A DNA stretch of 64,000 nucleotides, from contig NZ_CP013128.1 of the NCBI RefSeq assembly GCF_001484045.1, positions 352,283-416,282 on the forward strand, in the 5' to 3' direction. The position numbers and the translations under genes are program-made. Origin of the DNA: Mycoplasma sp. (ex Biomphalaria glabrata). GTDB lineage: Bacteria > Bacillota_I > Bacilli_A > Mycoplasmatales > GCF-1484045. Position 1 is the first letter of the stretch. Each line of letters opens with the position of its first letter. Below, piece by piece: positions 386 through 45,830 of the stretch. The notes beneath the pieces were generated by a model. The model made no database searches, was not told the origin of the DNA, and worked only from the letters and a program-made list of their open reading frames with translations.

Positions 386-1093
386 CTACTTATTGTTAAT
401 AAGAACAACAATTTCGCCTTTTTTTATTCACTCTTTATCAATAAATTCCTTTACCGTTCCTATTAAAACCTCTTCAAATGTTTTAGAAATCTCTCTACAT
501 ATACATATTTCGATATTTTCACCAAACACTCTATAAATAGCATCCAGAAATTTATCAATCTTATTAATACTTTCAAAAAATATTAATGTTGTTTTTATTT
601 CTTTAAGATAGCTTAATTTGATTATTTTTTGTGTAATTTTGTTGTTTAAAAACCCACCAAAGTAAAAACTATCCGTTGGAAAACCACTTAAAACTAATGC
701 TGGTAATATAGAGTTTGGTCCGTTAATAATTTTTATATATATATCTTTCTCTCTTAAAAATCTCACAACTTTAAAACCAGGATCAGAAACTAAAGGATAT
801 CCTGCGTCACTAACCATAGCAATTGTTTTTCCAGATAAACACTCTTGATATATCTTTTCCGAAATTGTTTGAGAATTTTCATTAAATTTATTTAAAAAAA
901 TAAATTTTTTTCCTTCAAAATTAATATCATTTTTCTTTAAAAGATCTTTCGTTCTTCTAGTATCTTCGCATATAATTAATGATGCATTTTTTAATATTTT
1001 TAATGATAAAAAAGATGATTCTTCATTATTGCCGATAGGTGTTGCAATTAAATAAATTTGTAATTCATTATTATTTTGATTATATATTTTCAT
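386..1093 (-). CDS. rsmI: 16S rRNA 2'-O-methyltransferase (C1402)
   Basis: RsmI methylates the ribose of C1402 in the decoding centre of 16S rRNA using S-adenosylmethionine. The 235-residue product shows the family motifs ATPIGN (17-22) and SDAGYP (95-100), followed by LVSDPG. A TGA near the 3' end (428-430) is read as Trp and the real stop is TAG at 386-388. The start overlaps the end of tmk by 14 bases, suggesting translational coupling. Its position after tmk and before metS matches the Bacillus yabC region, with holB missing from between. Confidence 0.93.
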
Positions 1094-1733
1094 TTTTAAT
1101 CATTTTCTTAATTATTTTTTTTGCCTGTTCTAATAATTCACTTTCATTCAATAAAGGATCTAACGAAATAAAATTATTTGGATTATTATATTTTTTTATA
1201 ATTTTTTTATAATTTTCATTAACTTCATGATAAAATTCAAAATCTTTTTCGTCCATGCGATTTTCTTTAACATGAGATTTTCTTTCCATGATTTTATATA
1301 AATCTTGATCACTTTTTGGAATGAGAAAAAAAGTTATATTAGGATAAACTAATTTAGGCTCATTAAATAACTCTAACGCTTTTACATTAATTTCATTAAT
1401 AAAATCCGAAGTAATGTTTTTAGATGATTGATATGCAATAGTAGAAAAATAATAACGATCACAAAAAATAATTTTTTGATTTAAATTAGGTAATATCACA
1501 TCTTTAACATGTTCTATTCTACTGGCTAAAAATAAAAATAGCTCAGTTACTATGCTTAAATTATCAAATTCAAAAATTAATGATCGAATTTTTTCAGCAG
1601 CCGGGCAATTTTTACCTCCCGGTTCTCTTGTTGTGAAAATATTTATATTCTCATTTTCACAAAAATATTTCTTTAAATTGTTGATTAAAGTTGTTTTCCC
1701 GGTTCCATCAATCCCCTCAAAAACTATAAACAT
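1080..1733 (-). CDS. tmk: thymidylate kinase
   Basis: Phosphorylates dTMP to dTDP for DNA synthesis. At 217 residues it has normal family length. The P-loop GIDGTGKTT is at residues 7-15, the TREPGG dTMP-binding motif at 35-40 and the DRY motif at 92-94. The start overlaps the end of recR by 10 bases and the stop (TAA) lies inside the rsmI start region, so recR, tmk and rsmI form a tightly coupled group. Confidence 0.95.
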   Translation of the reverse strand: MFIVFEGIDGTGKTTLINNLKKYFCENENINIFTTREPGGKNCPAAEKIRSLIFEFDNLSIVTELFLFLASRIEHVKDVILPNLNQKIIFCDRYYFSTIAYQSSKNITSDFINEINVKALELFNEPKLVYPNITFFLIPKSDQDLYKIMERKSHVKENRMDEKDFEFYHEVNENYKKIIKKYNNPNNFISLDPLLNESELLEQAKKIIKKMIKNENI

Positions 1734-20656: not shown

Positions 20657-23566
20657 ATGATTCTATTAATTAAAAATGGGTTTGTTGAAATAAGAAAATA
20701 CTTTTTCCAATTTTTATGTTGTATATTATTAATTTTTTCAGGAATCACTATTTTTACAACACTAAATTTATCAGGTAAAGCAATTTCAGATAGTTTTTAT
20801 TATTATTCAAAAGCAACAAAGCTTTATAATTTTAATACTCCAGATAACAATACAAGTTCATTTGACTGAAATCCAAGTGATCCTGTAATTAAACAACAAT
20901 GTAAAAACTATGTTGATTTTTCAAATCAACAAAATAGTTATGAATGCGAATTAAATCTAATAAATTATTATTCTAGCTCATCACAATTTGACTATGATTG
21001 AGACATTGCTCAAAAAGTTTCTACACAAATATTCTTAAATAATCAAGTTCAGCAAATTACAGTTGAACCATTAGAAAATAATATGAATTATATGATTCCT
21101 TATTTTCAAAATGCTAATTATATGGAGTCTAATTATTTACAAGATGGAAATTGTATTGTAAATCCAGATTGAGCAAAATTAAATAATTATCATATTGGTG
21201 ATATGATTAATCCATTTAATTTACAGCCTTTAAAAATCACAGGATTTGGAGTATTGCCTTATTATGTAAACGAACAAGTTTCACCATTTTTTAACAACGG
21301 AGCTATGGCATACATTGTTACAAATCCTTTTACTTTTCAAAATATTGCAAAAACTTATCAAGTTAATTCAAAAAGTATAGATTTTCGATTTAATACAGAT
21401 TTTCATACAGTTGATCAAGTCAATGCTAAGGTTAGTGACTTAGATAACTTATTGCAATCAAAACTAGTTATAAAAAACCCAAAATTTCATTTTTTTAATT
21501 TTGCTTATAAATCAGGACTTGATTTTGATAATACAAATAGAAGAATTTCAATAATTTCAACATCATTATTTTTGAACGCCCAAATTGCTAACATTTTCTT
21601 GGTTATATTGTTAAGTAATGCCGGAATAATTACATTTATAGTTGTTAGAAGAAGAATTTCAGATTCACAAAAACAAATCGGTTTATTAAAATCACTTGGT
21701 TACACTAATCTTGAAATTGCTGCTTGGTTTTTACCTTTTTCCTTTGTTGCTTGTTTGATAGGATCTGTATTAGGATCGCTAACGGGATTTTTATTGCAAT
21801 CATTTATTAACGAACTCTACCACATGTATTATCCGTTAAATATATTTGATTACTCATGACAAACTTTCTTTTTTTCTTTAGTCATTCCAATTATTTTAAT
21901 TTCGGGAACAAATTTATTTTTCTCTGTTCGCTTAATATCAAAAAACACAGCATCCTTAATGAGGGGAGCAACATCGGATAAAGTTACTTTCATATTTAGT
22001 TTATTGCGTGTATGAACGTCTAATTTATCATTTAAATTTCGTTTCACTTTTGCTTTGTTTTTAAAATCTATTGGCAAAATGACAATTGTGGCTGTAAGTA
22101 CACTAATTTCAGGATTTCTAGCACTATTTAGTGTGTCAGCATCATCAACTGTGGAGGTATTATCAAGAAATGCCTTAGCCACATCACATTATAATTACAT
22201 GTATAAATTTAATGAAAATTATTTACTAAATAATAACTATAAAATGTTTCAAGAAAAATGTATTAACGGAGAGCAACGAATTCCTGAATGTTTATGGGCC
22301 AAAGGGCAGGCAGGTAATCCTGATCAATACATAAGTCCTTTAGATTCAACCTCTCTTTTTAAAGCTATTGAAGATAGTATTAACAAAGGTTCTTTTGATT
22401 TGGTAGCATTATCTGGAAAATATTATTTATTAACAGATGATAATAAAAATTATTTGAAAGTAACTATAATTCCTTTCATAACGAACATTATCAACACCAC
22501 TTCTAACCAACAATTAAGAACAGAATTGGGTGTTTTGTTGATTTACCTAAGTGAAGTTATTAATTCATCAAAACCATATGTAACTTTTGGTTATTTAGTG
22601 CAAGGTCAAAATGACGTTAGCGGTTTGAATTTTCAGGATAAGATTGATCCCAATCAACAAAACAATTTGCAAACAACATCGATTATTTCATGATATGGGG
22701 ATTATAAAAATTTATCTAAATTTATGACATATTATACTAATTCTTTTCAGCAAGCATTAGAACAAAAAATAAGTAATTACACTCCGATTGCTGTTTCGAC
22801 ATTTTTAGCCCAACAAGATTCCTTAAAAGTTGGATCAACAATGGAGTTGGGTAATACAAAATGTGAAATTGTTGATATTTATGATAATAGAGTAATGAGT
22901 GAAATAACCATGTCACCAACAAATATGTACAAATATTTGTTAGATGAGCAAAAAATTTCAATAGTTACATATAATAAATTAATTTCAGAATCACTATCGG
23001 AACAAGAGCATTTTAGTAACATGTTATTATCTAATGAAACAATGCAAGAATACCCTTTTAATTATCTTCCGATAAATGTTTCTAAGGTTTCTAATTCAAC
23101 TTTTTTATCTTGATATTTTAATTTAAATCAATTAAAGGAATTTATATCAGGGCAAATTAATAAATTAAATATCATGATTACTTTATTAATAATTGCTAGC
23201 GCAATAATTTCATTAATTATCATATTAGTTATTGCAAATGTAATTATCAATGAAAATAAAATAATCATATCTATTATGAAAGTTCTTGGTTATCGAACAA
23301 ATCAAATTAATAGAATGTTTCTTGGAATGTATTTACCTGTAATGTTAGCTGCATTCTTGTTATCAATAGGTTTTGTTAATGTTTTACTAAATTATTTAAC
23401 AAACACTATTTCTTCTAACGCTAATGTTTTAGTGGATTTCTCATTAAACATCTTTGATATTTTGATTTCATTATCAATTATAATTATTTTGTATGCATTA
23501 TCAGTTTTATCGGGGTATCGCTTAATCAAAAAAATTGGATTTTTAAAAGCAATTCAAGCCGAGTAG
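20657..23566 (+). CDS. FtsX/MacB-like ABC permease, 8-TM, two-unit
   Basis: A 969-residue membrane protein read through many TGA codons. It has two FtsX units: TM1 (~15-40) plus an outer domain plus three TMs, then a second TM (~466-490), a second outer domain and three TMs. Each unit has the cytoplasmic KxLGY motif (LLKSLGYTNLEIA and MKVLGYRTNQINRMF) that contacts the ATPase. The outer domains carry closely spaced cysteine pairs (for example near 535 and 545). The ATG lies 3 bases after the ATPase stop. Typical of large mycoplasmal permeases of unknown cargo. Confidence 0.88.
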
Positions 23567-23573
23567 GAAAATT

Positions 23574-24941
23574 ATGAACAAAATTCTTAAAAATATGTAT
23601 AAAGGGATCTTTTCACACAAAACACAGTTAATAGCTTTAATTGTTTTAGTTTGTATAGGTGTCAGTTTTGCAATTGGCGTAAGTTCATCGATTCAAGTTA
23701 TTAGTAAAAAATACGATGAAATGGTTAAAGAATCAACACCACATCAATTTATTATGGATATTTCTAATCTTTCTGATGTCAGTGATGAAAATGATAAAAA
23801 TCATCAAATTCACGACGAAAGTCATTTATTAAAAAATATCGAAACTTATTTGAATCCTTTTTTTACAAGTAGTAATGTACAAGAACAATATACAGTTAAA
23901 GATATTCACGAATTATATACTGGATCGGTATCTGGAGATAAGGGTGCAAATTCAGTATTTAAAGTTGAACCATATCAAGCGACCGGTGTAGATAAAACTA
24001 TTATTGTTAAAACGATGATTGATCCGAGTAAAATGCAAGCTGATGAAATTTACATTTCACCATTTTATGCTCAAGCAAGACATATCAATTTAGGAGATTC
24101 AATAACGGTAGGGCAAGATAAACCTTATAAAGTTGTTGGTTATGCAGTTAGTTATGATTTTTTATTTATGCAAGTTGATAAATTAAATCAAATTCCTGAT
24201 GGTCAAAACGAGGCAATGGTTTATTGTAGTCCTAATGCCTTTTATTACAATCCAACAGATTTAGCTGATGGAAGTCGATTTGCAACAACATCTAATCAAG
24301 ACCGCGAAATTTATATTATGGGAGCAACGAATCAAAAAAATTTCGATTTTCGAAATTTTTTACAAAATAAAATAAAAAACCCAGCATTCAACAACTCAAC
24401 CGGAATTTTAAATGTAACTGGAAGTGGTTTTAATTATTCCTTCAATATATATAACGGGAATGACCCAAAATTTTTATTTAATAACCGCTCAAATACTTTT
24501 GGTAATATAATTGATGACACAAAGAGTATTATGATCGTTTTGATGATTATTTTAACGATAGTTACATGATTCATCATTACCATCATTAGCAAGAAGCGTC
24601 TAGATCAAGATAGTCAACATATTGGTATTTTCATTGCCAATGGTTATCGAAAACTAGAAATTATTTTAAGTTATGTAGGTTATTCGTTTATTAGCACGAT
24701 TGTTTCATCAGTTTTGGCTATTTTTGTCTCAATTGGAGTTTATTATTTTATTACTCAATTATTTTTAAGTTTATTTAATTTACCAATTTTTGGGACACCA
24801 TGAGATTTCGGAGAAATTGCAATATATTCTGTTATTTCCGCGATAATAGCTATCATAATTACTTGTTCAATAACATTCTTATTCTTGTGATTTAAATTAA
24901 GAAATGTGACGACTATTGAATTAGTGAAAAGGGAGGTTTAA
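23574..24941 (+). CDS. FtsX-like ABC permease, first half of a split pair
   Basis: 455 residues: TM1 (IALIVLVCIGVSFAIGV), an outer domain of about 260 residues, then three C-terminal TMs, with IGIFIANGYRKLEII as the ATPase-contact motif. It corresponds to the N-terminal unit of the neighbouring two-unit permeases. The stop TAA is followed after one base by the GTG of the next gene. A GGGAGG sequence inside its end provides the ribosome-binding site for that gene. Confidence 0.85.
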
Positions 24942-24942
24942 A

Positions 24943-27387
24943 GTGAAAAAAGAACCTAATTTCTTTAAAAATATTTTAGAGAATAATAAATTTTATCGTC
25001 GCCATTTACGTAATAAAACTCTAAAAAAAGAATTATCAGAACAAGAATGACAAGAAAAAAAATATCGCGATTATCAATACATTCGCAATTTACGTAGTAT
25101 GCAATGATCAATTGCTACTAGATACATTTCTCGTATTGCAACTGTTGCAATAATTATGTTTACTTCATCAACTTTAATTTTGATTTCTATTTTATTACCT
25201 AATGCCTTAGGTGTTTTTAAATCAGGAGCTATTAATGGATTCGGAAATTACCAATCCTATAGTGAATATCACGATACAGCTATTAATATTCCGGTTACAA
25301 AAGGTAATTCAGAACAAAGTTTTGATCAACAAGTTGATACAACAGATCCATATTTATCACCAGTTGGAGGACCTTTTTCACCATTCAATGGCGAAAAAGG
25401 AGTAGATAATCGTTATAGTGTTTTTGATGAAAATGATGATTACCAAACAAGTTATGCACCAAATTACACAAGTTCACCTTTAAACCTATCATTATTTAGT
25501 TATTTAGGTGGGTTTGTAATTAGTACAAAATGGGTTCAAAACTTAGACAATAGTGGAATTAGTGCTCCGGCTTTCAAGAATACAATTTGTAGTGCTTTGG
25601 GTATAGATCCAAACGGACCAGGAATAAAAACAGGAGTAGATTGTATTACCCAAGTAATTAGGCAAAATGCTCCAGCATATATTAACCAAAAATTATTTGG
25701 AACTGGTGCTCAACCGAACATTTATTTGACAGCTGCAGATATAGAATATAGTTATTTAACAGACACACTATACACTCACATAAATGGTAATATCGAAGAT
25801 AAAAATATTAAGTCAGAAATATGAGGTTTAAATCCCAATAGTAGTTTTAATTTAACAGACGGACAAACAGATTTATTTAGTAAATTAAATAGTTCTTTAT
25901 TGCAATATGCTGGGAAAAATGTTTTCCCGTGTTTTGTCAATAAAACACTAGAGAACGATTTGAAGGTTAATAATGCCATTGATAGTAATGGGGATTTTAT
26001 GTATCAATCAAACTATCAAGTCGGATTTTATCAGGACCCAACAGATCCAAATAAATGGTTGGCGATTAATCCAAATAATTACTATTGATCATTGAATAAT
26101 GGGTTATCAGTTTTTTTTGATCCGCTAAATAGTCCAGGAAGTTCAACAGATGCCTTTCTAAATGCTGAATCAACATTTGATCCGTCGCAAGCACGTCCAA
26201 CTCAAGACAAAGTCGTGGATGTTAATAATAGTGTTGATGCTTTGGTTGCTAAAGGGAAATTTAAAATAGAAACAATTCCTTACACAGTTAAAATGCATAG
26301 TATTGGTGTTGCAAATGATTTTGGTGATGCAAGAATTTTTACAACACACTCATTAGCTAACGAAATCGCTGGATATTATGCACCAACAACAAATGATCAT
26401 TTTATTTACAATTTACAAGCAAAATCACCTTTCGATTTAACATCATCAACGATTAGTGAATTATCTAAACCCACTTACTATAACTCTAATTCACCGATTG
26501 CTCAAGCTTTAACGCCGGTTAGTTTAGATGACATTGAAAATTATTTATCAAAAACGCCTAATGCTCATTTAGCTTCAGATGGTCACCCTTATCAAGATAA
26601 AATTTGAGCTCCTTTACTGCAAGGAGATATTAAAAACGATAAATATAGTTTATCTGGTGGATACACATTGTATTCATTTAAGGACGATCAAAGTGATATT
26701 TATTTTAACGGCCGACTATCAACGCAATTAGAAAATGCTGATTTATCGATATTTTCAATTTGAACACCATACGGAAATTATGATCGTTTTGGAATGTCAG
26801 ACACTTCTGATAAAAATTGAGACCCGACTCAATTTGCAAATGGATATAAATGTAGTGGACCCGCCGACCCTACATGTATAGGTTCTGCAAATCAATCTTC
26901 AATATCGGTACAAAATGCTTATTCAAAGAAAGAAGTTGTAGATGCTATCGATAAAATTGTTCAACTAATTACAATTGTTTTATATGGAACGCTATTATTC
27001 TTTTTGGTTGTATCGTTAATAATTATTCTAGTTTCAACAAACATTGTTATTGATGATAACAAAAAAAATATTTCTGCTTTTAAAATTATGGGTTACCGTA
27101 ATTCTGAAGTAATAAAAATTATCACTCAACCGTATTTTATGACAGTTATTTTGGCATTCCTTCTAGCAATTCCTGTTGTTATTGGTATTTTCAGCGTTTT
27201 ATTAGACGTTATCGGTTCGGTTACTGGTTTAAATTTAGCTCAATCGGGTATTTCAATATGAGAGTTTGCTCAATGATGACATTTCGCAATCGGTCTAGTA
27301 ATAATTGTTTTTATTTATACCTTAAATATATTTCTAAATAGAAAAGCATTAGATAGAATTAAACCAATTGATGTTTTAAAAGGATAG
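24943..27387 (+). CDS. FtsX-like ABC permease, second half of a split pair
   Basis: 814 residues starting at GTG 24943, which has a perfect GGGAGG site 7 bases upstream. A basic cytoplasmic stretch (~60 residues) precedes TM1 (VAIIMFTSSTLILISILL). A very large outer domain follows, then three TMs with FKIMGYRNSEVIKII. Cysteine pairs occur in the outer domain (for example CSGPADPTC). With the preceding gene it makes the equivalent of one 8-TM permease. It ends 2 bases before lysS. Confidence 0.85.
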
Positions 27388-27389
27388 AC

Positions 27390-28882
27390 ATGGAATACAA
27401 TAGAAAATTTTCTGAACAGGAACAAATTCGTCGTGACAAAAAGAAAAATTAAAAAATTTAGGATTTGAAAATTATTCATCAAAAAAAGAAACTAATACTT
27501 CAATTGAAGAATTATTTATTAGATATAATGAATTATCAAAAGAGGAACTTGAAAACAAAAATAATTACACCTATCAAGTAATGGGTCGCGTAATGGCTAA
27601 ACGTGATCAGGGAAAAACAATTTTCTTTAATATTAAAGAAGTTCTAAAATCAATTCAATGTTATGCTAGACAAGATGCCTTAACTGAAAATGAATTTGCA
27701 GGGCTAGGTTTAATGGATATAGGGGATATTGTTTATGTTACTGGAACGATTATGAAAACCAAACTTGGTGAATTAACCTTAAAAATTAAATCTTGAGAAA
27801 ATGTCACAAAAAGTTTGAAGGTTTTACCTGAAAAATATCATGGTTTGAATGATATAGAAGAAAAATATCGTCACCGTTATGTAGATTTAATTACAAGTGA
27901 TGAAACAAAACAAGTTTTTATTGATAGAACTAAAATTATTAAATCAATTAGAAATTTTTTGGATGATCAAAATATTTTAGAGGTTGACACTCCAATGCTT
28001 CATGCAATTCTTGGTGGAGCAGCAGCTGAACCGTTTGTTACACATCACAACCAATTAGACAGAGATTTTTATTTACGTGTTGCCCCAGAATTATTTTTAA
28101 AAAGACTAATTGTTGGTGGTTATAGAGGTGTTTATGAGATGGGAAAAAATTTCCGTAATGAAGGCATTTCTATAAAACATAATCCCGAATTTACTGCCAT
28201 TGAAATTTATATCGCAAATCAAGACCTTCGAGATATGATGAAGTTGACTGAAGATTTAATTAAGCATGCTGCATCAAAAATTATGACTAGTATGAAAATA
28301 AATTATGATGGCAACGACATCGATTTAAATGAATTTAGTAGAATTTCGATGATAGATAGCATCAAAAAAGAAACTAATATCAACTTTTTAGCGAAAAATT
28401 ATTCAATAGATGATTTGCTAAAGATATGTAAAGAACATAACATACATGTTGAAAATCATCAAAAAACCTTTGGACATGTAGTTAATTTATTTTTTGAACA
28501 TTTTGTAGAGAAAACACTTATAAATCCGACATTTATTTATGATTATCCAATTGAAATATCGCCATTTGCTCAAAAATTGAAAGAAGATGAACGTTTTACG
28601 GATAGATTTGAATTATTTATTGGGGGAAGAGAATACGCTAATGCTTTTACGGAATTAAATGACCCAGATGATCAAATGGAACGCTTGGAAAACCAATTAA
28701 AAGAGAAAGAGAAAGGAAATAAGGAAGCGAATGAAATAGATATAGATTTCATTGAGGCTTTGGAATACGGAATGCCGCCTACAGGGGGGTTAGGCATCGG
28801 AATTGATCGTCTAATTATGTTGCTAACAAATAGAAGAAATATTCGCGACGTAATTTTATTTCCAACATTAAAAACAAAATAA
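27390..28882 (+). CDS. lysS: lysyl-tRNA synthetase (class II), one frame break
   Basis: Charges tRNA-Lys. The N-terminus reads [20 protein letters not shown] and hits TAA. One extra A in the A5 tracts at 27438-27448 continues it as [13 protein letters not shown] and on to the OB-fold ([15 protein letters not shown]) and the class II core ([47 protein letters not shown]). The repaired length is 497 residues, normal for Lys[10 protein letters not shown] replaces the usual GGAxAR/KPF. It is embedded between two permease genes of the ABC cluster. Confidence 0.88.
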
Positions 28883-28900
28883 TGGTAGAAAATCAAAAAA

Positions 28901-31900
28901 ATGTTTTATTTATTTAAAAATAATTTTAAAAGTATTTCTAAGAATAAGATTAGTTTCATATCGATTCTTTTTATTTCTTTATTAAATTCCTTATTGTTTG
29001 TTGTTTTTGCTTTTTCATTAGATAATTATGAAACATCTTTTGCAAAATACGAAAATCAAACTTATTTGCATTACTATTCGCTAGATAAAAACAAAGTATC
29101 TTTAAAAGATGGTTCACCGATTACTAATGATAATTTTAATAATTGATTTAACAAACCTTTCGGAAGTAAAGGTTTAGAGTGAACTGAAAATTACGAAATT
29201 ACTTCAATTACAAATTTTAGAGGAGTTTTGAGTTATTTTTCTTTTTTAAATTTTAATGGAACAAATGATCATCCTTTTACATTTAATAATGCCAAGGTAG
29301 ATTTACCTGATATTACAAAAATGAATAATCAATTTAATATAAACGATGAGAATCCAGACATTAATTCCGAAATAAAAACCGGATTACCTGTCTTAGCTAG
29401 TCAACCATGGGCAGAAAATTGAAATATTCACATCGGTGATAGTGTGAGTATTTTTGGATTGACATTACTAATTACAGGATTTGCCAAACCTGCCAATTTA
29501 GTTTCTCCAGTTATTGGAGATAACATTTCAACAAAAGGTACTAATTCTGGATTCTTTATTATTAATTTTGGAGCGGAAAGGACTATAACAGATTTAAATG
29601 ATGTTGAAAATCGAGTAAATAATTTTAATAGTCATGTATCAACAAACACTTCAACGCTGAAATCTACATTTGTAATGAGGGATAATTCGCAAATTTTTTC
29701 AAATAATTTTGTTACCCAACAATTATATTCAAAATACAAAACATCTTTTGATGACGATTTTAAATGAATAGAACAACGAGACCAAGATTCAAAAATAAAT
29801 ATTCTTCAGAATTCTTGAGTGGATGATTTTAGAATTAGTCGTTTTCTTAAAACAATGGAATCAATAGTTTTTTTTCGAAATTTTTTTGGGATATCGTTGA
29901 CACTTATCGTTTCTCTAATTACAGCCATTACTCTTAAAAGATTAATTCATAATTCTAAAACTGAAATAGGTATTTTAAAATCTCTAGGTTATTCGCCAGC
30001 AAGTATTGCTATTAGTTATTCGACATTATTAGGATTTATTGGAATTTTAGCAGGTTTGTTTGGAGCGCTTACTGGATTTTTATTACAAGCAATTGTTACC
30101 TCCTTGTCATCAGACGTTTTCTTAATAACAATACCTTTATCCGCATTTTTTGTGGTACCATGACTGATTGGTTTATTTTTCCCGGTAGTGTTATTGGTTT
30201 GTTTAGGTTTTATTTTTAATATGCAGTACACGACTAAAAAAATATTAGTTCTTACGCGACCAATTGTTATGACTAATTTATATTTTTTATCATCATTAAA
30301 TGGATTATTAGATAGACTTCCTTTTTGAACAAAATTTTCAACAAACACTGCTTTAAAATCAATGTCAAAATTAGCAACTTTGCTTTTAGGAATTATGTTC
30401 TCAACAACATTACTATTTACAGCTTTTTCTATGAATGGTTTGATTTCGAGAAATTTGCAGGAAAGTTTGAAACCTTTGAATTACAATTTTGAAATTACTT
30501 ATAACCGTCAACAAATTATAGATAACAAAAATATTTTAATAAATAGTCCAGATCCAGAAGTTAACTTAAATGGAAGCTATTATGGCAAAACCACAACCGA
30601 CGTTTTAACACCAAAAAATGGTTCTTATTCTCTAGTTCCTGAACAGGACGGAGCAAGTAGAAACATTAATGAAGAATGAACTAAAAATCTTCAAAAATTA
30701 AGTACACCAGATATTGAAAAATTATTTACATTTATGATGAATAACGGGATGGGCGGTTATTATTTTACAGTCCAAGAAATTAATCAGCAGGCTGGAGGAA
30801 TTGATAAAAGTACACTACCAGATGTTGCTAGAGTTTTAAGTAATATTGCTAGCATTTTACCTTCAGGAAATATTAAAACATTTGTAAATAGTTTAATAAA
30901 TAGTGTAAACGAATTAGAAGCAAATTTTAGCGGATTACCGACCACGAATAAAAATTTTTATATTAATTCTGGTTTTTCTTTATATGATTCTGAACACGAT
31001 TATCGTTATGCAGATTCATCTACAATTATTAAAGTTCCGACTGGTGAGAATGTTGATTTCGATGTTAAGGGCATGAATGATTTATATAATAACTTACCGA
31101 TTTCTAATTTTGTAAATACTATTAACTATACAGAAATAAACAATTTACAACAAGATCAAAATTTACCTGGAGTAATGGTGAATCAAAATGCTAGTGATAA
31201 TTATGGAATTAAAATCGGGGATATTATAAATATAAACGGACAAAACTGTTTAGTTCAGAAAATTTTTTCCGGTTATTTTAAGAACATTATTATTACCTCG
31301 GATAAAAACTTTTCAACTATTTTTTTTCCACATCAAACTATTCTAGATGATAAATTAAATAATGCTGTAATTTATAATAAATATTTTAATAATAATTTAA
31401 GTATTAGTGATTACCTATCGACACGTTTTTCTTTTGTTTTACAAACATCACCAGATAATCCAAATGTATTTAGCGCTTCAACCAATTTTTCATCATTTTA
31501 TTCAGTAAAAGATGTTTTAGATGCTGTTAATTTAATTGTTTCAACGGTTCAAATTTTTATCGCTATTACCGTTTTTGTTTTTATTGCTATTGCTATAATC
31601 ATTATTATGTCGGTTATCGTGTTAATTGTTTATGAAAATTCATTATTTATGTCAATTATGAAAGTTCTAGGATATTCATCAGGTCAAATTAATAAGTTGT
31701 TTATGTCTATATATATGCCGTCCATTTTTATTGGACTTGGGCTTGGTGTTCCTCTTTCAGTTTTTGCTGTAAATTATTTATCAAATCAATTGACAACAGT
31801 GTTAACAATCGGGATTAGCCCGCATACTGATATTTGAGACCTATTAGCATCTATTAGTGTTGTTGTACTGATCGTATTAATTGCTGCATTATTTAGTAAA

Positions 31901-31951
31901 TCTCTTATTAATAAAATTGAAATGAATCAAGCTTTAAAATCTTTAAATTAA
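28901..31951 (+). CDS. FtsX/MacB-like ABC permease, 8-TM, two-unit
   Basis: A 1016-residue paralogue of the permease at 20657. TM1 is at ~15-42, a first outer domain is followed by three TMs with LKSLGYSPASIAIS, then TM5 (LATLLLGIMFSTTLLFTAFS), a larger second outer domain and three final TMs with MKVLGYSSGQINKLF. The start at 28901 directly opens the TM-preceding segment MFYLFKNNF. There is no clear ribosome-binding site, so it may depend on lysS translation 18 bases upstream. It has no ATPase of its own and probably shares the one at 19742. Confidence 0.85.
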
Positions 31952-32020: not shown

Positions 32021-32043
32021 AAATATTATGTATCATAATATTT
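32021..32043. promoter_or_regulatory. perfect palindrome upstream of nrdJ, candidate operator
   Basis: Two exactly inverted 10-base arms (AAATATTATG and CATAATATTT) are separated by TAT. They end 14 bases before the nrdJ start, just ahead of its AAGGGGGG ribosome-binding site. TTGTTA (32018-32023) and TATTTA with 17 bases between could be a promoter overlapped by the palindrome. It does not look like a standard NrdR box. No B12-box sequence is seen, so a cobalamin riboswitch is not supported. Confidence 0.5.
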
Positions 32044-32057
32044 ACCAAGGGGGGAAA

Positions 32058-34589
32058 ATGTTTTTAGAAGAAACAAAAACCGAAAAATTATTAGTGCCTA
32101 AATGTGATGAAGGGATGAAAAAAATGTACTCAAAATCATACATAAAATCATTAAATGACGACATAGAGAGATGTTTTGGATGGGTTTATCCTATTGAAGA
32201 CCATTATAAAATTACTAATCAAGGAATTTCTAGATTGGTTATGCTGGATAGGTATAGTCAAAAAGATAAAAATCAGGAAACCTTAAAAAAAGGCGATTTA
32301 GTTGTTGTTATTTTAAGAGAGGATCCGCTATTTCCATCTCGTGGAATTGGTAATATCATCGAACTAAATAATAGTAATGTAAAAGTGAAAGTAGAAGAAC
32401 AATATTTATCAAATTTATCGCAAGATGAACAGGCAAATGATGGTATTATTGTTAGAAATTGTGGCCAAATAGAAAAACCTCTTGAAATTTTTTGAGAGCA
32501 AATTGCTAAGAGAGTAGCTCATAATTTATCTGAACAAGAATTGACAGATGGATCAAAAAAACGTTACGAAATGGAATTTTTTAATGAAATTAGTAATTAT
32601 CGTTTTATACCTGCAGGTAGAGTTCTATATGGTGCAGGGAGTGATAGTAAAGTAACTTATTTTAACTGTTTCGTTTTGCCGTTTATTAAAGACTCTCGTT
32701 CTGGTATTTCAGACCACAGAAAAATGGCAATGGAAATTATGTCAAGAGGTGGTGGTGTTGGAACTAACGGAAGTACTTTAAGACCGAAACACGCTGTTGC
32801 TAAAGCTGTGGGAGGTAGATCATCAGGAGCAGTTTCTTGATTAAACGACATTTCGAATTTAACACACTTAGTTGAACAAGGTGGAAGTCGTCGTGGAGCT
32901 CAAATGATTATGCTTTCTGATTGACACCCCGATATTATCGAATTCATCATTTCTAAAATGCAACGCCCCGATGTTATTTTGTGATTAAAAGAAAATTCAA
33001 ATGATCCATTAATTAGAGAAGAAGCTGCTAAGAAAATAAAATTTATTCCGATATCAAATAGTGATAGAGAAATGTATGAAAGTATTTTAAGAAATAAAAA
33101 AGATTTTAAACCAAATATCGTTCAACATGCCACTGATTCTTTAAGAGCTGGCGGAAAATGAGAAGTATTGAATCCAGAATTTTTAACTGGTGCAAATATT
33201 TCAATCACTTTATCAGATGAATTCATGAATGCTGTTGAAAATGATAGTACATGAGATTTACGTTTTCCTGATTTAGAAAATTTTTCACCTGAAGAAAAAC
33301 AGATTTATGAAAATGAATGATCATCATGTGGAGATATCAGTGAATGAGAAAACAAAGGATATAAAACTAAGATTTATCGTCGTATGAAAGCTAAAGATTT
33401 ATACCACTTAGTTACTTTTTGTGCCACATATTCAGCTGAGCCAGGAGTGTTCTTTATTGATGTTGCAAATAAGATGACAAACGCAAAAGCATACGGGCAA
33501 AAAGTTGTTGCCACAAATCCTTGCGGGGAACAACCATTAGCTCCGTTTTCAGTTTGTAACTTAGGAGCTTTGAATTTAGCTAAGTTTGTGGATAAAAATT
33601 CTGGAAAAATTTTATATGAAGAATTAAAATCTTCAGTAGCTATTGCTGTTAGAATGTTGGATAACGTTATCGATTCAACTCCTTATTTTTTAGAGGAAAA
33701 TCGTGAACAAGCTTATAAAGAAAGACGTATTGGACTAGGAATTATGGGTTTACATGATTTACTAATTTGAAACAAAAAAGCATATGGTTCTGAAGAAGGA
33801 AATGTTGTTGTCGAAAAAGTTATGGAAACTATATGTGTTACCGCTTATAAAACAAGTATCGAAATAGCAAAACAAAAAGGTTCATTCCCTTATTTAACAA
33901 ACCGTGAAGCATTTATTGAAACAGGTTTTATGAAAAAAATGCCAGAGGATGTAAGACGCGATATTTTAGATTATGGAATTAGAAATTCACATTTATTAAC
34001 GATTGCCCCAACCGGAAGTACAGGAACTTTAGTTGGAGGATCAACAGGTTTAGAACCATATTTTGCTTTCAAATATTTTAGATCAGGTCGTTTAGGAAAA
34101 GATATGGAAATAGAATCTGATATCGTAAAAGAATGAAAATCAGTTAATAAGTATGACCAAGAAGAATTACCAAATTATTTTATTTCTGCTATGGAATTAA
34201 CGCCTGAACAACATACACAAGTTCAAGTAATTATTCAAAGATGAGTAGATTCTTCTATTTCAAAAACGGTTAATGCACCAGCAGGTTACTCAGTTGAAAA
34301 TGTAGAAAAAATTTACACTATGCTTTATAAAAATGGTGCTAAAGGTGGAACTGTTTATGTAAATGGTTCAAGAACGGCACAAGTATTATCTCTTGAAAAA
34401 GAAGCAAAAGAAGAACCGTCTCAAGATTTAATTAACATGAAGGAAAAATTACGTGGAGATCGACAAGATCGTGAAATCGGAAACGAAGTCGACAATATTT
34501 GTCCACTATGTAATGAAGGTATTGTAAAAGAAATAGGTGGTTGCAATACTTGCACTAACTGTGGTGCTCAATTGAAATGTGGTTTATAA
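32058..34589 (+). CDS. nrdJ: adenosylcobalamin-dependent (class II) ribonucleotide reductase
   Basis: Reduces ribonucleotides to deoxyribonucleotides with a B12-generated radical and no partner subunit (843 residues). Active-site residues are visible: Asn487, Cys489 and Glu491 in NPCGEQPL, one redox cysteine in FNCFVLPF and its partner in FSVCNLGALNL. The C-terminal shuttle/zinc-type tail is CPLCNEG...CNTCTNCG. The phosphate loop is TIAPTGSTGTLVGGSTGLEP. Residues ~75-145 form an extra segment (KKGDLVVVILREDPLFPS). The ATG at 32058 is preferred over two upstream ATGs because AAGGGGGG precedes it. Mollicutes normally use NrdEF. Confidence 0.92.
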
Positions 34590-34596
34590 TTAAATA

Positions 34597-35268
34597 ATGA
34601 ATAACGTTACTTTTATTGTTTTATGTTCTGGAAATTCTAAACGTTTTGGTAGTCAGAATAAGATTTTTTCCAACATCAACGGTAAAAAAGTTATTGAAAT
34701 TTTGTTAGAAAGAATTATTGAATTTTCTTTTGCCGAAATTATTATTTCTATTAAAAAAATAGATTTACCAAAATTAGGAGAAATTTTAAATCAAGATAAA
34801 TTTATTAACTGCAATTTTAAAATTTCGTATGGCGGAAGAACTCGCCAAATTAGCTCTGAGAATGCTGTTGCGAAGGCTAATTTTCCGTTTGTGATGATTC
34901 ATGATGGTGCACGACCCTTTTTACAAAAAAAAGTAATTCAAGAAATTTTAAATTACATTCCTAAATATGATGCTATTATTCCAGTTTTAAAATTAAATGA
35001 TACCCTTAAAATGGTAAATAAAGAATTTGTGCAAAAAACATTAGATCGAAAAAAATTTGTTTTAGTTCAAACTCCTCAATGCTTTAAAAAAAGCTTAATT
35101 CAAACTGCTTTTTTGTCAGCAAATAAAGCTGGTGACTTTGATAATTATGATGATTCAGTATTAATAGAAAAATATACAAAAAAAAGAGTTAAGACAATAG
35201 ATGGGTCTTATTTAACTGAAAAAATTACGGTCCCATTGGATATTGAAAGGATTAGTAGATATGAATAA
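34597..35268 (+). CDS. ispD: 2-C-methyl-D-erythritol 4-phosphate cytidylyltransferase
   Basis: Third enzyme of the MEP isoprenoid pathway, making CDP-ME from MEP and CTP. The 223 residues show a nucleotidyltransferase loop (LCSGNSKRFGSQNKIF, an unusual variant of AAGxGxRM), GGRTRQISSENAV, IHDGARPF, KLNDTLK and QTPQCF, all characteristic. It supplies the substrate for the IspE half of the fusion at 12892. The start is 7 bases after nrdJ. The end overlaps the next gene by 8 bases. Confidence 0.92.
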   Translation: MNNVTFIVLCSGNSKRFGSQNKIFSNINGKKVIEILLERIIEFSFAEIIISIKKIDLPKLGEILNQDKFINCNFKISYGGRTRQISSENAVAKANFPFVMIHDGARPFLQKKVIQEILNYIPKYDAIIPVLKLNDTLKMVNKEFVQKTLDRKKFVLVQTPQCFKKSLIQTAFLSANKAGDFDNYDDSVLIEKYTKKRVKTIDGSYLTEKITVPLDIERISRYE

Positions 35269-42095: not shown

Positions 42096-42763
42096 TGCTT
42101 CCGATTAATATAAACACAGAGTGAAAATATTTTTTAGAAGAAGAAACCAATAAGGAATATTTTCAAAAAATAATATTATTTCTCGATTGTGAATACAAAA
42201 ATAAGAAAATTTACCCTAAAAAGGAAGATATTTTTAGGGCTTTTTCTTTTTTTAACCCATTGGAATTAAAAGTTGTGATAATCGGACAGGACCCATATCC
42301 TTCAGAACATGCAGATGGATTAGCTTTTAGTTCACAAATTAGCAATAAAACCCCAGCGTCATTGCGAAATATTAATAGGGAAATATTTTCTCAATTTAAA
42401 AAAGAGAGAAAAAATAATAATTTAATTGATCTTGCAGAACAAGGAATTTTGTTGATAAATTCTAGATTAACGGTTGAGGAAAAAATACCACTTTCGCATA
42501 AAAATATCGGATGAGAAAAATTTTTAGAAAATTTATTAATATATATAAATTCTTTTAACAGTAATATTGTTTTTTTGCTTTGAGGAACTGAAAGTATAAA
42601 ATGTAAGAAATATTTAAGTAATTCTAAATTTTTAATTTTAGAATCACCTCATCCTAGCCCATTAAGTTGTTATCGTGGCTTTTTTGGAAATAATCATTTT
42701 CAAATAACTAATAATTATTTAAAATTAAAAAATACAAATGAAATAAGGTGATGAAGTGTTTAG
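42095..42763 (+). CDS. ung: uracil-DNA glycosylase
   Basis: Removes uracil from DNA. The 222 residues show the catalytic loop GQDPYP (64-69, Asp66), HADGLAFS, LINSRLTVEE and the DNA-intercalation segment ESPHPSPLS (here SPHPSPLSCYRG). It ends NEIRWWSV after two consecutive TGA codons. The GTG start overlaps the preceding TAG by one base. The end overlaps the next gene by 8. Confidence 0.92.
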
Positions 42764-43613
42764 CACAAGAAAAATAACTTATTTAGCTACATTAACAACG
42801 GCTAGTGTTGCTATTATTATTGTTCTTTCATCATTGACTCCAATCGCAATTTATCCTGATATTAGAATTTCTTTTGAAGGAGTTCTAATCAAATTAACGG
42901 GATATTTATTTGGTCCGATTTTTGGAGTTATCTCGGCTTCATTAGCTGAATTTTTACTATTATTATTTAGACCAGGAATTGTTCATTGAATTTACACATT
43001 AGCAATTATTTTATATGGTTTATTTGGGGGTTTAGCATACTTAATTAAAAATAAAACTAAAAATCCTGTCTTATGTTCAGCTTTGTTTAATTCAACTATG
43101 TCTATTGGGATAATATTTTTTGCAATTCTATCTATGTCACATATTATTAGTATAATAAACACCGATTCAATAGAATTTTTTAGTTTATTTCATGTTCCAA
43201 CATTATTGTTGTGAATATTTATGCTTATCGTTGGTGTTGGTATTATCGCATATTCAGTTTGATCATTAATATACTCAAAAATTACTAAAAAAGAAACGAC
43301 TATTTCGATATTAAATAATGTCGGACCAATTATCTTTCTATGTATTTTAACCGAGATTCAGTCTGTATTACTTGTAAGTTACGGAAATAGTATTGCTTTA
43401 ACGCAAAAATCATCATATATAAGTTGATTAACATTATCTTTAGCTGAGATGCCTATTAGAATTATTTTCAACGTTATTATTATTTTCTCAGGATGAAAAA
43501 TATTGAGTCCACTAATAAAAATTGAAAGATCTTCTGCAGAAAAACATTTAAAACATCAATCATCTCATAAGAGAAAAAAGGTTATCTTTTTAAAATGGAA
43601 AAAAAAGTCATAA
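42756..43613 (+). CDS. ECF transporter S-component (vitamin-binding subunit)
   Basis: 285-residue membrane protein with about six hydrophobic segments. It starts at GTG with AAGGTGATG upstream. The N-terminal part (TRKITYLATLTTASVAI, then YPDIRISFEGVLIKLTGYLFGPIFGVISASLAEF) follows the pattern of energy-coupling-factor substrate subunits of the folate-like group. It overlaps folC by 19 bases, suggesting folate as the substrate. It needs the shared EcfA/A/T module, which is not in the window. Confidence 0.75.
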
Positions 43614-44846: not shown

Positions 44847-45830
44847 ATGAATTTATATGTAGTGTTTGCGATTGTTGGGATTATATTTCTCTTCATTATT
44901 TCTTTTTGTTTGGAATTTTTCATAGCATACAAAAGTATTACTTTGAAAAATAGATACCAATTCTACTTAAAAAACACCTTTAAAACATCTAAAATAGCCA
45001 TTACAGGTATATTTGTGGCAATAGCTGTAATGGCTAATTATTTTGTGATACCAATTGTTCCGCCACAAACAGTTCTCATTACTTTATTCTCAATAACAAT
45101 TGGATTTGTAGGGATATTGTATGGACCGCTTTTAGGAACATTAACAGGTTTACTTGAAGATGTTTTACATTACTTGTTTAATTCAACCGGATTTAGTTAT
45201 TATCCAGGTTTTACTTTTTCAGCTTGTTTACATGGTTTTTTTGCAGGACTATTTGTTTTAATTTTTAGATATATAATTGGTCGAAGAAAAACGTTGGTTA
45301 TTTCTATGATTTCTATGTTAGTGATGCAAATATTAATGGTATTCAGTATTTTGTTAATTTATAGTGATTTTTCTATTTCTAGATCTTTTGAAAATATAGA
45401 TAAGAAGTTTAACGGTAGTGGTTTAGTTTTCTTAATACTATATTTTACGATTCCTAATTTTGTCATGATTATTTCGTTCTTAATGCCAATTGTTAAACCT
45501 AAAAAATTTGAACATTTAAATGTTTATTACATGATCATTTTGTATGTTTTATTTGATCAATTTTTAATTTCGATGGTATTTGATAATTTATGAGTTCATG
45601 ACCTATACGGGGTACCGATTGAACCATTAATAGCTTTAAAATCATTCTTATTGCCAATGTATGTTGTAATTAAATTTACCTTAACATATTTTCCTATTAT
45701 AGCCATTTACAATTTATGACCAAATGATACATTTATTGGACTTTTGTTTAATAACAATAACAGCAATAAATGTGTAGAAAATAGTAAAATTAAGGAAATA
45801 AGCAAAAATCAGTATGAAAATTTTCAATAA
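44847..45830 (+). CDS. ECF transporter S-component, folate-type
   Basis: 327 residues, about seven hydrophobic segments, with the family core SITIGFVGILYGPLLGTLTG and YYPGFTFSACLHGFFAGL, which resembles FolT-type S-components. GAGAGGAA precedes the ATG. The hydrophilic tail overlaps the cysS start by 17 bases. Second S-component next to folC. Confidence 0.78.

Follow-up and report, generated by a model that had tools for sequence, protein, structure and literature searches.

A probably old cobalamin-dependent ribonucleotide reductase and a putative B12 salvage kit in mollicutes

Does a bacterium with a very small genome make its DNA precursors by way of vitamin B12, and if so, where do the enzyme and its coenzyme come from? 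The question is raised by one gene in a 64,000-nucleotide stretch of DNA, here called the window (G000:C1:352283-416282), which belongs to a single-contig genome of 647,830 bp (97.5% complete, 28.2% GC, code 4). An earlier interpretation made from the letters alone, the sequence-only reading, had seen in it an adenosylcobalamin-dependent ribonucleotide reductase (RNR) in a mollicute. The bacterium is indeed a mollicute: RpoB places the genome inside the order, and its code is 4. We consider it likely that the enzyme, NrdJ, is the organism's sole RNR, dependent on cobalamin and fed by uptake, and it is probably an old, inherited class II reductase.

The nrdJ gene and the supply of deoxynucleotides

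The gene and its immediate surroundings contain the following features (window positions unless marked otherwise):

32021..32043, no strand assigned: perfect inverted repeat AAATATTATG-TAT-CATAATATTT, immediately 5' of nrdJ
32047..32054, + strand: Shine-Dalgarno-like sequence AAGGGGGG, 3 bases ahead of ATG 32058
32058..34589, + strand: nrdJ, adenosylcobalamin-dependent (class II) ribonucleotide reductase, 843 aa with code 4 (genome position G000:C1:384340-386868)
34597..35268, + strand: ispD (PF01128), starting 7 bases past the nrdJ stop

The nrdJ region is fragmented under table 11 and forms a single open frame of 843 codons under table 4. Tryptophan is encoded in it by 11 in-frame TGA and 1 TGG codons, the genome-wide numbers being 1821 and 104 (frames counted). 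The start called earlier, ATG 32058, proved correct, and as the strong ribosome-binding site AAGGGGGG stands just 5' of it, the alternative TTG 32016 is unnecessary. The exact sequence of the inverted repeat is found once in the genome, among 101 perfect repeats with 10-bp arms, and may be an operator or an RNA hairpin. No riboswitch, cobalamin riboswitches included, was detected near nrdJ within the window at Rfam gathering thresholds. The gene is followed by ispD and then glpX and lies outside any cobalamin cluster; nrdJ and ispD are probably on one transcript, with no functional link between them. On its 5' side, four large permease-like membrane protein genes (20657-31951; 455-1016 aa), FtsX/MacB-like by eye, form a run broken up by a lysyl-tRNA-synthetase-like gene at 27581-28882. 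Elsewhere in the genome, at G000:C1:58684-81905, large paralogous proteins of surface type (599-2611 aa) are encoded in a cluster; their N-termini are alike, and some are split at 5-base N gaps.

The predicted protein scores 1280.1 bits against NCBIfam NF005991 and 562.3 bits against TIGR02504 (NrdJ_Z), the curated equivalog cut-offs being 854 and 399.95, respectively, and 364 bits against Pfam PF02867. Its best relative in the PDB comes from T. maritima, whose B12-dependent RNR (1xje/1xjk) it matches with E 1.5e-65. In an alignment of 75 NrdJs, C204, N487-P-C489-G-E491 and C500 are invariant, C489, C204 and C500 aligning with T. maritima NrdJ, and so are the tail cysteines 815, 818, 829, 832, 835 and 841; the Pfam scan showed no ATP-cone domain. 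The prediction that window positions 32058-34589 encode an intact NrdJ is confirmed, and a chance match is excluded. The sequence-only reading had pointed to class II motifs (NPCGE, a cysteine pair and a CxxC-rich tail), which the invariant residues bear out, and its placement of the protein among the adenosylcobalamin-type reductases is upheld, as a family assignment, by scores above both cut-offs. Like other NrdJs of the NF005991/TIGR02504 type (Bacillaceae; T. maritima 1XJE), the protein has the expected length, barrel, catalytic cysteine triad, NPCGE loop and C-terminal cysteine tail, and is encoded by a single-subunit gene. Unlike Bacillaceae NrdJ, to which it is about 59% identical, it has 11 tryptophan codons that are TGA and sits on a long branch. 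The gene itself is ordinary and of a known type; its interest lies in what surrounds it, namely the salvage kit described below and the adenosyltransferase that appears to be missing.

A second RNR large subunit (NrdE included) and NrdD (NRDD domain, PF13597) were not found in the genome, nor was NrdF (PF00268), the lack of a small-subunit match being as expected of NrdJ. Phmmer searches of the genome with mollicute deoxynucleoside kinase (dNK) and Tdk gave no match; the sole dNK-family match, below cut-off, is the thymidylate kinase Tmk (window 1080-1733). Thioredoxin, thymidylate synthase (ThyA), DHFR and dUTPase are present, together with a CAVC pyridine nucleotide-disulphide oxidoreductase that we take as the thioredoxin reductase (TrxB). 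With no other RNR and no deoxynucleoside kinase found, the genome shows no way to dNTPs other than through a functional NrdJ. Its metabolic role is that of the class Ib NrdEF of mycoplasmas, and intact NrdEF would have made it redundant; the genome search for nrdE and nrdF found neither, so NrdJ is not made redundant. As no NrdF, NrdE or NrdD was found, the supply of DNA precursors would hang on outside cobalamin, which agrees with the earlier claim that DNA synthesis is tied to a cobalamin supply.

Putative cobalamin uptake and the search for an adenosyltransferase

A B12 uptake system and a cobalamin adenosyltransferase had been proposed as things to look for. The search for the first gave an ECF module and candidate partners for it, at these genome positions:

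G000:436136-438676: ECF module with two ABC ATPases (shared) and a CbiQ-type EcfT
G000:548079-548726: CbrT-like S component, profile match 1.3e-9
G000:514878-515378: CbrS-like membrane-anchored protein, profile E 7e-4, just after dUTPase

The S component obtained its match with a profile built without its own sequence, which left the other S components of the genome unmatched. Pairwise comparison links it to CbrT-like proteins from family f10 and from L198, a locus of the same class outside the order; alone, it matches neither 6fnp nor any Pfam family. With its sequence included, the profile (A1) of the S components that mollicutes encode next to nrdJ has its best PDB match in 6fnp_A, CbrT of L. 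delbrueckii (E 5.6e-14), and we infer that the protein would carry cobalamin as its substrate. The CbrS-like protein, which has no Pfam match, could perhaps be a membrane-anchored cobalamin binder. A BtuCD-type B12 importer (FecCD permease, PF01032) is absent from the genome.

Other S components were considered and set aside. Those in the window at 42756-43613 (beside folC) and 44847-45830 are weakly folate-family-like and unmatched by the CbrT profile, and were therefore rejected as B12 transporters. The one at G000:553516-554154 resembles the solved S component 4RFS (E 2e-4) and, weakly, 6ZG3; we take both to be pantothenate (PanT) transporters and thus did not take it as CbrT.

For the order as a whole, we sampled 298 genomes, 34 of which carry NrdJ by our own cut, a near full-length or multi-fragment match; three of those counted (G018, G050 and G078) may hold broken genes. 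A CbrT-like S component is present in 34 of the 298 genomes, including 29 of the 34 NrdJ carriers (Fisher 4.5e-30, ignoring shared ancestry), and CobA/BtuR (PF02572) in 44, including 33 of the carriers (Fisher 3e-33, again ignoring shared ancestry). In many mollicutes an ECF S component is encoded beside nrdJ. By these gene matches, NrdJ-bearing mollicutes appear to share a B12 salvage kit consisting of a CbrT-type ECF S component and a CobA/BtuR adenosyltransferase. PduO is matched as well in G059 and G139, both from f3.

In genus g16 the two are fused: three genomes encode CbrT and CobA as a single 358-aa protein that starts about 20-35 bp past nrdJ (L017:4020-5096, L018:4022-5098 and L020:4015-5091, from G051, G025 and G066, all without NrdF). 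The L018 fusion, the only one that was domain-scanned, has a complete CobA/BtuR domain (PF02572, 174.6 bits, residues 185-358). The S components L021:148-1329 and L261:156-1268 carry about 170-190 aa more at the C-terminus, an additional domain that may be a CbrS-like binder joined to CbrT. In G117, a 2'-deoxyguanosine-I riboswitch (L022:1355-1419, 52.1 bits) immediately precedes nrdJ, which suggests product feedback on the B12-dependent RNR.

A described parallel is Lactobacillus delbrueckii, a B12-auxotrophic Firmicute with an nrdJ-cbrS-cbrT-pduO cluster, whose NrdJ is supplied by an ECF-CbrT transporter (PMC5997447). Locus L198 resembles that cluster in that its nrdJ adjoins the genes for PduO, an S component and a CbrS-like protein (weak DUF4430 match). 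The genome studied here differs from it in that the genes are scattered (G000: 384, 436, 514 and 548 kb) and an adenosyltransferase was not found; the other NrdJ-bearing mollicutes use CobA/BtuR (33/34). A 2009 survey of 17 mollicutes found nickel and cobalt use lost in 88% (PMC2667541). Open-licence full texts yielded no published account of a mollicute or Spiroplasma NrdJ, class II RNR or adenosylcobalamin system, which is weak evidence, as only that literature was covered.

The search for an adenosyltransferase (CobA, PduO or EutT) used the domain models PF02572 and PF01923 as well as a CobA profile built from 30 mollicute sequences, and was negative throughout the genome apart from about 3 kb of masked sequence. 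The masked stretch covers 5,000 bases (G000:C1:161283-166282) from the 5' end of the 23S gene, probably with the 16S inside; the 3 kb, about 0.5% of the genome, lie beyond the expected 16S and are probably not rRNA. With that exception, no adenosyltransferase is detectable here, in contrast to all 33 other NrdJ-bearing genomes. The sole match to the GKGKT motif, G000:533363-534379, is an RNase HII-family protein and was rejected as a candidate.

As no adenosyltransferase of a known family is detectable, the likeliest course is that the coenzyme is imported already adenosylated. Such direct uptake is feasible, since L. delbrueckii CbrT accepts Ado-Cbl, more weakly than other cobalamins (PMC5997447). 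We put forward import of ready-made adenosylcobalamin from the host or neighbouring microbes tentatively, with rather less than even confidence. Equally tentative is the wider proposal that the organism is an obligate adenosylcobalamin scavenger, which would have dropped the adenosyltransferase kept by the other 33 NrdJ-bearing mollicutes and would import the labile coenzyme through a variant of CbrT.

It is also possible, if on balance somewhat improbable, that the genome has the same CbrT and CobA kit as the other carriers, its adenosyltransferase being hidden in the 3 kb or too diverged to be recognized. Such an enzyme would be expected from the near-universal presence of CobA among the carriers, from its occurrence in the f3 and f10 genomes with which this NrdJ groups, and from the existence of masked bases; it would, however, have had to escape all three profiles and the motif search, in which only an unrelated protein matched, or to lie in the very small part of the genome left unseen.

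Distribution and age of NrdJ in the order

The 34 carriers belong to families f1, f3, f4, f5 and f10, and 15 of them lack NrdF, leaving NrdJ as the sole RNR found there. NrdF is above cut-off in 136 of the 298 genomes, and with these frequencies the earlier statement that mollicutes normally rely on NrdEF was too strong. Decayed nrdJ remnants are present in f9 (G008, G021, G027 and G033) and f7 (G251). In the four f9 genomes nrdJ is broken by stops and frameshifts and NrdF is lacking, and in G008 and G033 CobA, too, is fragmented; these genomes are RNR-less and in the course of losing the NrdJ system. A further open frame, L251:1087-3765 in G124, lies beside NrdEF and encodes an NrdJ-like protein (34% identical) that lacks the cysteine tail and in which both C204 and the NPCGE loop are replaced, probably an inactive relative of the reductase.

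In a tree of the 75 NrdJs, a single branch with support 99/95 separates the 30 mollicute sequences from 45 of other Bacilli. The root of the RpoB tree splits f10/f7/f11 from the rest, and the occurrence of NrdJ on both sides suggests that it was present in the common ancestor and has been lost many times since. The GC3 and TGA use of our nrdJ are native to its genome. Judged from these comparisons, NrdJ is probably an old, patchily lost trait of the order, the deep relationships in its tree being shaky. Whether it is an old trait of all close relatives, as the sequence-only reading had asked, thus receives a divided answer: old it appears to be, but G001, its sister in the RpoB tree, carries NrdF and lacks NrdJ.

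Our NrdJ groups with f3 and f10 (100/97) and not with its RpoB neighbours f4/f5; in the RpoB tree the genome stands next to f2, which is itself long-branched, followed by the f6/f4/f9/f5 side. A rooted test with NrdJs of 36% identity as outgroup did not reject a single mollicute NrdJ clade (p-AU 0.078), but this outgroup is too distant to settle the base of the tree. The grouping with f3/f10 may come from long branches or from transfer within the order. A move of NrdJ between mollicute families, for example among the ancestors of f1, f3 and f10, would make the gene old in the order and not strictly vertical here. It would fit the disagreement between the two trees and the rejection of a clade joining our NrdJ to those of f4/f5 (p 0.0175), but the longest branches of the tree are involved, false joins are expected among them, and the outgroup is remote; we regard such a move as doubtful.

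Many genomes of the order have neither NrdJ nor NrdF, and some of f9 are losing NrdJ, a setting in which this organism, too, might take deoxynucleosides from its host and have no real need of the enzyme; with every catalytic residue in place, no dNK or Tdk found, and ThyA, DHFR and dUTPase retained, we think this very unlikely. Hardly credible, finally, is the replacement of NrdEF in this lineage by a recent horizontal gain from Bacillaceae or another Firmicute, the course that the sequence-only reading had suggested: in its favour, similarity to Bacilli NrdJs (up to 62%) equals that to NrdJs of mollicutes, and G001 has only NrdF, but NrdJ is spread over five families and both sides of the RpoB root, all 30 mollicute sequences stand apart from other Bacilli with ours grouped with f3/f10 (100/97), and the base composition is native.

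A proposed route from scavenged cobalamin to DNA

In the reading that we prefer, an old NrdJ fed by cobalamin uptake, the enzyme would, as one of the TIGR02504/NF005991 type, probably reduce ribonucleoside diphosphates. Homolysis of adenosylcobalamin would produce a thiyl radical at C489, C204 and C500 would serve as the redox pair, and the C-terminal cysteines would pass electrons, with thioredoxin and thioredoxin reductase as the reductant. The dTTP would be made via dUTPase, ThyA, DHFR and Tmk. An ECF transporter composed of the shared ATPases, EcfT and the CbrT-like S component, perhaps aided by the CbrS-like binder, would scavenge the cobalamin, the coenzyme most likely being taken up in its finished, adenosylated form from the host or from microbes nearby, and the living cell would depend on this supply.

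The picture of mollicutes as making deoxynucleotides by NrdEF or not at all is corrected by these results. A noticeable fraction of the order retains an apparently old B12-dependent RNR together with a B12 salvage kit of its own, and in nearly half of the carriers (15 of 34) no other RNR was found. The mollicute CbrT-CobA fusions are an uncommon opportunity for work on coupled import and adenosylation. For the 648-kb genome studied here, DNA synthesis would have its limiting link in the supply of vitamin B12, with implications for who the host or community partner could be.
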